Positions 14,301-16,753 of a DNA stretch of 32,919 nt are shown one piece after another (the first letter of the stretch is position 1; each line of letters begins with the position of its first letter). The position numbers and the translations under genes were made by a program. Source of the DNA: Candidatus Doudnabacteria bacterium (GTDB lineage: Bacteria > Patescibacteriota > Doudnabacteria > UBA920 > O2-02-FULL-48-8); assembly GCA_016186915.1 (NCBI GenBank), contig JACPKU010000002.1, positions 1 to 32,919 on the forward strand, in the 5' to 3' direction. Under the pieces are notes generated by a model. It saw nothing but the letters and a program-made list of their open reading frames with translations, was not told where the DNA came from and ran no database searches.

Positions 14301-14747
14301 ATCACCCGTGTCCAAAAAATTATTACCAAAAAGGGAGAGCAAATGGCCTTCTTTGATTTGGAAGACCTCGGGGGGACTATTGAAGTCCTGGCCTTCCCTT
14401 CACTCTACAGTAAGCACCAAAATTTGATCAATCCTGAAAAAATCGTCCTGGTCAACGGCAAGGTTTCTGATAAAGACGGGGTGCCCAAGTTTCTGGCTGA
14501 TGAAATCAAAGAGTTCGGCTCAGAAGCTCCGCCTGTTTCGAATACGGCTCCAGTGCCTGCTGTAACCATTAAGATTCCTCAATCGACGTCTGAAGAAATA
14601 TTTATGGAGCTTAAACAACTGTTCGAAGTTTCCCCAGGACAGACAGCGGTCAGTCTTTTGATTAATGGCCAAAAAGTCAAAACGCCTTTCAAAATTAACT
14701 TAACCGACGATCTCTCTGATAAAATCAAAAAAATTATAGAACCCTAA
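11343..14747 (+). CDS. dnaE: DNA polymerase III subunit alpha
   Basis: PHP domain HLHVHSHYSLLDG, TTRGSAAGSLVSYVLGIT, PPDIDIDFADNRRDEV, SLYRPGPIDSIPEYIRRKH, FNKAHAASYAIVAYQTAYMK. The ORF track starts at 11325; ATG 11343 (MSKFTHLHVH) is likelier. Confidence 0.97.
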   Translation: MSKFTHLHVHSHYSLLDGLPKIDDLINNAKQKQFEALALTDHGAMYGAIEFYKKAKVAGLKPIVGMEAYLAIDSIHDRRSKIDNDYYHLILLAKNFAGYKNLMRLTSKAHLEGFYYRPRIDKELLKDHAAGLICLSGCMRGDIPRAILNSDFEKASRLVQEYKNIFGEKNFFLEIQRHEGSDTAFLQKEKLLGQGLIKLAKDTQTPLVATDDSHYLEPTDAEAQDLLVCVGLGKTVTDSDRLDMRGINLSLKNEKEMSELFTDLPEALENSQKIADECNLEINLNERFFPLYEVPQDSNADSYLKDLTYQGLAQKFPEPLDPVIKERADYELEVITSKNYSTYFLVVADFVNWARKQGIITTTRGSAAGSLVSYVLGITTVNPLDYKLPFERFLNPLRPSPPDIDIDFADNRRDEVIEYVTQKYGQDRVAQIVTFGTMMARAAVRDMGRALAIPYAKCDKIAKMIPLGKQGFHMTIEKAMTLNPDLKDAFERDPETKRLIELSIKVEGAARHVSVHAAGLVISPTALTDYTPLQKDQNGKTITQYEMHSVEEAGLVKMDFLGIRNLSILGNTIEIVEHTRNTKIDLLSIPLDDKKSFKLLTEGKTMGLFQLGGSGMTRYMKELGPTSIFDIMAMISLYRPGPIDSIPEYIRRKHNPKLISFSDPRMKDILSPSYGIITYQDDVLLIAIQIAGYSWEEADKLRKAMGKKIPKEMAAQKEKFIQGCIDHSRYDETKAQNLWNLIEPFAAYGFNKAHAASYAIVAYQTAYMKANFTVEFMASVMTAESGDPATVADAVEECQGLNIEVLPPSINESLANFTVIDNNHIRFGLNAIKNLGSDIIKTVISERKQNGKFLDVTDFVGRINSRNFNKRSWEALAKSGALDVFDERAKLLANTDAVLEFAKEQNKLKNSQQESLFGSTPVGNIRLTLRDVEPAGKKEYMAWEKELLGLYVSAHPLEDHKSKLQTLTQPIKEIEKHQGNVTIGGIITRVQKIITKKGEQMAFFDLEDLGGTIEVLAFPSLYSKHQNLINPEKIVLVNGKVSDKDGVPKFLADEIKEFGSEAPPVSNTAPVPAVTIKIPQSTSEEIFMELKQLFEVSPGQTAVSLLINGQKVKTPFKINLTDDLSDKIKKIIEP

Positions 14748-14754
14748 GCCAGAC

Positions 14755-14784
14755 TTGCCAAAAAAACAACATTTAGACTATAAT
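14755..14784 (+). promoter_or_regulatory. Promoter of the thrS leader
   Basis: TTGCCA-18 nt-TATAAT. Confidence 0.7.
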
Positions 14785-14790
14785 TAATGT

Positions 14791-14948
14791 ATTGATAAGA
14801 ATAAGGATATTGATGCGGCCCCACCAACCGCGGAGTCCTAGGTCTATCCGGAGCCTTAATCCGGAACAACGAAGTAAAAAATTGGGTGGAACCGTCCAGT
14901 CGGATGACTGGGCCCCAAGCAGAATCCTCTGTTTGGGCTTTTATTTTT
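14791..14948 (+). ncRNA. T-box riboswitch-like leader of thrS
   Basis: Antiterminator A1 TTGGG(14882-14886)/CCCAA(14914-14918), bulge TGGAACC(14887-14893), A2 GTCCAGTC/GACTGGGC with GGAT loop. Mutually exclusive terminator CCCAAGCAGA(14914-14923)/TCTGTTTGGG(14928-14937) followed by CTTTTATTTTT. Confidence 0.88.
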
Positions 14949-14992
14949 AAATTTGTTTCGTGCTTCGATATTAGTGCTTCGCGCTTAACCAT

Positions 14993-16753
14993 ATGAATAA
15001 ATCAAGCAATCAAGAATATCTTAACAACCTCCGCCATTCATGCGCCCATCTCTTGGCAGCGGCGGTTATGAAACTTTGGCCAAATGCTAAACGCGCCATC
15101 GGGCCGGCAATAGAAAACGGCTTCTATTTTGACTTTGATTTTGGAGGGATAAAAATTTCAGAAAAAGACTTCCCTAAAATTGAAAAGGAGATGCGCGAAC
15201 TGGTTAAAAATTGGTCAAAGTTCGACAGACAGGAATTGACTGCTGCGCAAGCCAAAAAAGATTATCCGAACAATCCTTACAAGCACGAAATGATTGACGA
15301 GTTTTCAGAAAAAGGCAAAAAGAAAATTTCTTTTTACAAATCCGGCGATTACCGCGATCTTTGCCGCGGCGGGCACATAGACAATCCCAAAAAAGAACTG
15401 CAGCATTTCAAACTCCTGTCCGTGGCCGGCGCGTATTGGCGAGGCTCAGAAAAAAACCAGATGCTCACCCGCATCTACGGCACTTGCTGGCCGTCGAAAG
15501 CGGAGTTGGAAGCATATCTCAAACAGCAAAAGGAGGCTGAAAAAAGAGATCACAAAAAATTGGGCAAAGAACTTGATCTATATGCTTTCAGTCCTTTAGT
15601 TGGCGCGGGGTTGCCCCTGTTTCTACCCAAAGGCGAAACTATCTTTCATGAATTAGAAGAATTTATGCGGGAAGAAAAAGAAAAATTAGGATACAAATTT
15701 TTGCACATCCCTCATATCGCTAAGGCCGAATTATTTAAAAAAAGCGGGCACTTGGGCAAGTATGACGCGATGATGCCGATAATGACAGATAATGAAGGCA
15801 ACGAGTTTGTCCTCAAAGCTATGAATTGCCCTCATCACTTTGAGGCATACCTGGCCCAACCTCACAGCTACCGCGACCTTCCCTATCGCATGGCGAGTAC
15901 GGCCACGGTTTACCGAAACGAAAAAAGCGGAGAACTAAGTGGACTAACAAGAGTAAAATCACTAACCATAGATGATACTCATCATATCGTCCGCCCGGAT
16001 CAGATTCAATCAGAAATCGAGATGATTCTTAAACTTATGAATAAAATCTATAAAACTTTTGGCTTTAAAGACTACAGTGTGCAAATCTCTGTGAGGGATC
16101 CTGACAATAAAAAGAAATACTTTGGCAATGATAAGGTATGGGAAAGATCAGAAGCAATTTTGATTGAGAGTGTTAAAAAATGGGGTCGTCCCTATGTGAT
16201 CGAAAAAGGTGAGGCGGCTTTCTATGGCCCCAAAATCGACATTATGGTGAAAGATTCGATAGGTCGCCCTTGGCAACTAACCACGGTTCAGCTCGATTTC
16301 AACCAGCCGGAAAATTTTCATCTACGTTTTACGGGAAAAGATGGAAAAGAGTATCCTCCCTCAGTGTTACATGTAGCTATTCTCGGTTCAATCGAACGAT
16401 TTATGGGAGTACTTATCGAACACTTTGCCGGCGCCTTTCCGCTCTGGCTTTCCCCCGTTCAAGTGGCCGTGCTGCCAATCTCTGACAAACAGGTCAAATT
16501 CTCTCAAGGTGTTGTGGACGAACTAGAACAGAATAATATCCGCGTAGAATTTTACAACAAGGCGGAATCCATCGGCAAAAAAATCCGGGAAGCTGAAATT
16601 AATAAGATCCCTTACATGCTGATTGTCGGGGAAAAAGAAGCTAAGAGTAAATCTGTTTCAGTCAGGGCGCGTAACCACAAAGACTTGGGCAATATGAAGA
16701 TAGACAAATTTGTCCAAAGGGTTAGCAGGGAAATCGAGACCAAGAAGATATGA
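14993..16753 (+). CDS. thrS: Threonyl-tRNA synthetase (no N-terminal TGS domain)
   Basis: LRHSCAHLLAAAVMKLWP, YRDLCRGGHIDNP, LKAMNCPHHFEAYLAQPHSYRDLPYRMA, GRPWQLTTVQLDFNQPENF. Confidence 0.97.
   Translation: MNKSSNQEYLNNLRHSCAHLLAAAVMKLWPNAKRAIGPAIENGFYFDFDFGGIKISEKDFPKIEKEMRELVKNWSKFDRQELTAAQAKKDYPNNPYKHEMIDEFSEKGKKKISFYKSGDYRDLCRGGHIDNPKKELQHFKLLSVAGAYWRGSEKNQMLTRIYGTCWPSKAELEAYLKQQKEAEKRDHKKLGKELDLYAFSPLVGAGLPLFLPKGETIFHELEEFMREEKEKLGYKFLHIPHIAKAELFKKSGHLGKYDAMMPIMTDNEGNEFVLKAMNCPHHFEAYLAQPHSYRDLPYRMASTATVYRNEKSGELSGLTRVKSLTIDDTHHIVRPDQIQSEIEMILKLMNKIYKTFGFKDYSVQISVRDPDNKKKYFGNDKVWERSEAILIESVKKWGRPYVIEKGEAAFYGPKIDIMVKDSIGRPWQLTTVQLDFNQPENFHLRFTGKDGKEYPPSVLHVAILGSIERFMGVLIEHFAGAFPLWLSPVQVAVLPISDKQVKFSQGVVDELEQNNIRVEFYNKAESIGKKIREAEINKIPYMLIVGEKEAKSKSVSVRARNHKDLGNMKIDKFVQRVSREIETKKI

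Follow-up and report, generated by a model that had tools for sequence, protein, structure and literature searches.

A predicted minimal T-box riboswitch upstream of thrS in Candidatus Doudnabacteria pairs an ultrashort Stem I with a transcription terminator

T-box riboswitches have been sorted into four classes (PMC10482949). Transcription is the target of Classes I and II, whose Stem I is long. In Class III, Stem I is short and carries an apical loop of 5–6 nt, and control is mostly translational; Class IV resembles Class III except for a Stem I of intermediate length (PMC10482949). In published models, a long Stem I grips the tRNA elbow, which makes binding fast enough during transcription, and a short Stem I, as in Class III, needs Stem II (PMC7583486, PMC10482949). 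Transcriptional T-boxes generally require the long form, and T-boxes have a k-turn at the base of Stem I (PMC7583486). In TBDB, the class II model was searched in Actinobacteria (PMC7778990). A search of the open-access literature found no paper joining T-boxes with CPR, Patescibacteria, Parcubacteria or Doudnabacteria. Here, we analyzed a stretch of 32,919 nt (the window; positions 1 to 32,919 of contig JACPKU010000002.1, assembly GCA_016186915.1) from a Candidatus Doudnabacteria genome of 728 kb that is 97% complete. Judged from its sequence and that of its relatives, the leader of thrS in this window is very probably a minimal tRNA-Thr-sensing T-box riboswitch controlling thrS transcription.

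The whole leader (14804–14948) lies directly before thrS (14993–16753), the putative regulated gene, which encodes threonyl-tRNA synthetase (TIGR00418, 670 bits against a cutoff of 384); all features of this locus are on the plus strand. Stem I is only 36 nt long (14804–14839). It consists of a C-stem (AGGAU/GUCCU), a 3-nt bulge (AUU), tandem GA/GA and an NC stem (GCGG/CCGC), the last forming a hairpin (GCGG-CCCCACCAA-CCGC, 14815–14831) with an apical specifier loop at 14819–14827. The loop holds the specifier ACC (Thr) at 14823–14825, followed by A. Stem I runs straight into helix IIA of an IIA/B pseudoknot (14840–14865), with no Stem II; IIA pairs AGGU (14840–14843) with GCCU (14853–14856), and IIB pairs UCCGG (14847–14851) with CCGGA (14861–14865). 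A purine-rich linker, ACAACGAAGUAAAAAA (14866–14881), occupies the usual site of Stem III and is followed by the antiterminator (14882–14918), made of A1 (UUGGG 14882–14886/CCCAA 14914–14918) and A2 (GUCCAGUC 14894–14901/GACUGGGC 14906–14913). Between A1 and A2 is the 7-nt T-box bulge UGGAACC (14887–14893), in which UGGA is complementary to the UCCA-3' end of tRNA-Thr. The intrinsic terminator, CCCAAGCAGA-AUCC-UCUGUUUGGG with a U-run, spans 14914–14948 and has a 10-bp stem at 14914–14937. Because CCCAA is common to A1 and the terminator, the two folds are mutually exclusive. The window leader measures about 115 nt against the 219 consensus positions of RF00230, and the smallest relatives about 86 nt, counted from Stem I to the end of the antiterminator. 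An earlier note on this DNA had named the hairpins, the bulge, both antiterminator helices, the terminator and the CCCAA common to two folds, and each was found where it had been placed.

The element is conserved well beyond this genome. A nucleotide search of 61 relatives picked up seven genomes from the window's own family, with all matches upstream of thrS, and reading of further regions upstream of thrS revealed the same element in other letters; some relatives, G002 and G016 among them, have no such leader before thrS at all. We aligned 18 thrS leaders, trimming long linkers and long A2 tips by hand and leaving the helical arms untouched. Standard pairs fill 97.3% of the pair cells over the 19 pairs of the C-stem, NC stem, A1 and A2, compared with 79.7% in a shuffled control (0 of 500 as good) and 27–54% when partners were slid by 1–3 columns. 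Two-sided changes occur at 14 of the 19 tested pairs. The Stem I helices are 97% paired with two-sided changes in every Stem I pair, and A2 covaries in all four tested pairs; A1 hardly varies and is thus uninformative on its own. The leader structure is not a product of chance. The bulge UGGAACC is invariant in all 18 leaders, as is the 5' GA after the Stem I bulge, and the opposing GA is nearly so. These GA letters lie between two covarying helices, and a Stem I base with a 3-nt bulge and tandem GA/GA is the k-turn arrangement, as in T-boxes. Conservation and covariation in relatives were what the earlier note had made its reading depend on, and the element shows both.

Downstream of Stem I, the earlier note had described UCCGG/CCGGA (14847–14865) as a short stem. 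The pairing stands, but a single hairpin at this site was dropped in favor of the covarying pseudoknot, which is of the H type and of which this pairing is helix IIB. In 16 sequences, with the pseudoknot blocks set by hand and each verified as present in its source sequence, 53 of 54 IIA pairs and 74 of 75 IIB pairs are formed (0 of 5000 shuffles as good). The earlier note had recognized neither the pseudoknot nor the k-turn, and the T-box conclusion is unaffected by them. At the F-box position, formed by the 3' strand of IIA and the next letters, most relatives have CCGUUA or GCGUUA, which resemble the T-box F-box (CCGUCA in Nocardia farcinica); the window has drifted to CCUUAA. One family (G015, G020, G024, G028 and G032) and G017 have no pseudoknot; their leaders keep only Stem I and the discriminator, with UGGN reached about 58 nt from Stem I. 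In T-boxes, the purine string of Stem III reads RRRxG-stem-AA; the window has CGAAGUAAAAAA but no stem there, AAAAG-stem-GAA is seen in some relatives, and an AAG motif recurs at the linker site in relatives. The purine-rich linker may thus take the place of the Stem III purine string.

The leader begins almost at the promoter. A sigma-70-like promoter (TTGCCA-18-TATAAT, 11 of 12 consensus matches) occupies 14755–14784, which places the expected transcription start near 14791 and makes Stem I, 20 nt beyond the promoter end, the expected first structure in the RNA. With the promoter so close upstream, there is no room for a longer Stem I. Relatives are organized similarly: 45 of 56 related leaders have a -10 box with at least 5 of 6 matches within 45 nt of the model start, where shuffles lead one to expect 21, and the median gap from the -10 box to Stem I is 12 nt. 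In the mechanism that we propose, RNA polymerase would start about 12 nt before Stem I, the k-turn would bend Stem I, and the adjoining pseudoknot would set the geometry. The UCCA end of an uncharged tRNA would then pair with UGGA in the bulge and hold the antiterminator, blocking the terminator and allowing thrS to be transcribed; with charged tRNA, the antiterminator would not be held and the terminator would form. We infer tRNA binding, charging dependence and readthrough, the charging dependence from the T-box family, and the anatomy fits charging-dependent antitermination. The folding energies of the antiterminator (-16.8 kcal/mol) and the terminator (-14.6 kcal/mol), each taken as an isolated hairpin, are close, which leaves the default state uncertain.

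The specifier follows the identity of the downstream gene. A covariance model, R1, matched in 40 of 50 genomes of the order (E up to 1) and in 61 of 384 genomes of the phylum (E up to 0.01). Its weak matches within the order are T-boxes of other synthetase genes (ileS, valS and glyS), and the phylum search yielded additional thrS and glyS leaders. The model matched 86 times in 80 loci, and all matches with an assignable downstream gene precede an aminoacyl-tRNA synthetase gene; the gene names of representative leaders were confirmed with NCBIfam. In the model alignment, the apical loop reads ACC, ACG or ACU in thrS leaders and GGC or GGA in glyS leaders. The same loop contains AUC before ileS and GUC before valS, most of these codons having been identified by eye, since the ileS and valS Stem I align poorly to the thrS model. 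The earlier note's proposal of a minimal T-box in a CPR genome that reads its codon from an apical loop is thus supported by conservation, covariation and codon–gene matching. At one further locus (L200), a T-box with an apical AUC precedes an open frame that resembles no synthetase, and similarity to IleS starts about 800 nt further on.

The acceptor end of the tRNA is matched in a similar way. The tRNA-Thr at 268–342, to which the earlier note had pointed, does have U73, but it is the UGU isoacceptor and not the cognate of ACC. The cognate tRNA-Thr(GGU) lies on another contig of the same genome (G000:C4:6315-6387), and it ends in UCCA with U73 both here and in more than 30 relatives. In this genome and in G005, scanned with the Rfam tRNA model, the Thr and Gly tRNAs have U73 and the Val and Ile tRNAs have A73; matching these discriminators, the T-box of thrS and glyS leaders reads UGGA and that of ileS and valS leaders UGGU. 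One exception is the valS leader of G005 (L205), whose UGGC is a mismatch with A73. Loop and anticodon may also pair beyond the codon. In relatives with the loop CUACCAA, UACCA could form five pairs with UGGUA of the anticodon loop AUGGUAA, and the window loop allows four pairs with the anticodon loop. These pairings suggest that a kiss between the specifier loop and the anticodon loop could stand in for the elbow and Stem II contacts that these leaders lack.

Other forms of thrS control have to be weighed against the transcriptional T-box. The E. coli thrS operator imitates the anticodon arm of tRNA-Thr. The hairpin in the window resembles such an arm and stands before thrS, as it would if ThrRS bound its own mRNA leader and repressed it. 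However, its loop displays the codon ACC rather than the anticodon GGU, versions of the element with the matching codons stand before glyS, ileS and valS, and the leader has a transcription terminator and a conserved UGGN bulge, all of which make a ThrRS operator very unlikely. Leader-peptide attenuation, in which ribosomes stalling at Thr codons would control the terminator, strikes us as extremely improbable. Although a frame from an ATG at 14813 runs through the leader, its one Thr codon is located in the T-box bulge, the Stem I pairs covary with two-sided changes, and the -10 boxes stand so near to Stem I that little room remains for a ribosome site. Both explanations were rejected on the codon, covariation, terminator and promoter evidence.

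It is also conceivable that the element is a T-box that acts on translation, like the known ultrashort actinobacterial T-boxes, given that Class III, whose members mostly control translation, is recognized by an apical specifier on a short Stem I (PMC10482949). We consider this highly doubtful, since the 10-bp hairpin and U-run end 44 nt before the thrS start codon and, in 44 of 46 relatives, the T-box is followed by a terminator-like hairpin, which in some of them lies hundreds of nt ahead of the gene. The preferred reading, a T-box controlling transcription, has its own points on the other side: the window leader has no elbow-binding module and no S-turn Stem II, features considered important for tRNA affinity (PMC7583486, PMC10482949), and the thrS leaders of a sister family of the order lack UGGN.

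Set against the published classes, the window leader shares features with several of them. In common with Class I and RF00230, it has a k-turn, IIA/B with an F-box, an antiterminator with UGGN-ACC, a terminator and an aminoacyl-tRNA synthetase gene, but it is without the distal Stem I, the internal specifier loop and the S-turn Stem II. Class II (Bacillus subtilis glyQS) is similar in being transcriptional and having no S-turn Stem II, whereas its long Stem I, internal-loop specifier, elbow-binding double T-loop and specificity for glycine have no counterpart in the window. The closest likeness in Stem I is to Class III (Nocardia farcinica and Mycobacterium tuberculosis ileS), with a k-turn at the base of a short Stem I, an apical specifier, no elbow-binding module, an IIA/B pseudoknot and a UGGN discriminator. 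In contrast to Class III, however, the apical loop of the window leader measures 9 nt (7–9 nt in thrS relatives), Stem II is missing and a transcription terminator is present. Short T-boxes before ileS and valS in the same phylum likewise have a short hairpin with an apical specifier (AUC or GUC), and their terminators were noted by eye. They keep the S-turn Stem II, with the motif in 13 of 14 leaders, whereas it was found between Stem I and the bulge in none of the 34 thrS and 7 glyS leaders (0/41). By their sequences, the thrS and glyS leaders are thus a Class III-like Stem I joined to a Class II-like lack of Stem II and a transcription terminator. This combination fits none of the four published classes, and the architecture is what is new.

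The standard RNA model largely passes over these leaders. Applied as the earlier note had suggested, the Rfam T-box model RF00230 did not detect the window element: no T-box was found in the window at the gathering threshold (93 bits), in 14740–15000 at E up to 10, or at the thrS locus in a whole-genome search at E up to 10. Relatives' leaders gave weak matches, which speak independently for the T-box reading, reaching at most about 40 bits (thrS, 31.4 bits, E 0.0018, and 28.3 bits, E 0.011; valS, 23.7 bits, E 0.18; glyS, 40.4 bits, E 8.9e-6). A pattern search of the window's own genome for GGNTGGNACC returned the thrS site as the sole GGGTGGNACC match, the rest looking like chance, and a strict pattern scan of 85,462 species found at least six loci, which is a lower bound given its strictness. 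Elsewhere in the phylum, RF00230 matched T-boxes in 100 of 290 genomes (9 above the cut-off), several of them with a long Stem I; canonical long-Stem-I T-boxes occur at L248–L262 in other Patescibacteria families. A T-box in CPR was therefore dropped as a novelty in itself, and what we claim as new is the architecture alone.

We think it reasonably likely that these leaders represent a fifth T-box architecture found across the Patescibacteria, with an ultrashort Stem I, a 7–9-nt apical loop kissing the anticodon loop by 4–5 pairs, no elbow contact, no S-turn Stem II, sometimes no IIA/B, and action on transcription. If so, a codon–anticodon kiss together with contact to the acceptor end would suffice for cotranscriptional tRNA sensing, and because these leaders have neither a long Stem I nor Stem II, the minimal requirements of a T-box become testable. 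Control of aminoacyl-tRNA synthetase genes by tRNA sensing would also be spread through a small-genome phylum, in leaders that the standard model mostly scores below its cut-off. The smallest of these tRNA sensors are offered for structural work.

Several neighboring and divergent loci deserve mention. In the sister family, f2, thrS leaders with the same Stem I have the bulge ACGGAAAC or ACGGAAUC replacing UGGAACC (L042–L046, L048, L049, L050, L054, L074, L077, L078, L128, L134, L137 and L138), and GACG-GAAA-CGUC in these leaders could close as a small hairpin. The tRNA-Thr of the family still ends in UCCA, and glyS or valS leaders in some of its genomes keep UGGN. Six leaders (L128, L133, L134, L136, L137 and L138) carry a further hairpin, placed between Stem I and the antiterminator, whose loop has a conserved CUAGAG motif (mostly UUCUAGAG); this hairpin could possibly be an additional tRNA contact. 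In the window's own genome, the valS leader (L195, C2:60232-60323, minus strand), directly after tsaD, is T-box-like, with an S-turn motif and IIA/B as well as UGGUACC, but no clear GUC-bearing Stem I could be found in it. Near a valS locus of a CPR genome, a Cyclic di-GMP-II riboswitch scores 62.6 bits, above the gathering score (L197:1888-1971, minus strand). Finally, the isoleucyl-tRNA synthetase encoded at L204:263-2998 appears to have a histidine-phosphatase (phosphoglycerate mutase-like) domain inserted at residues 502–652.
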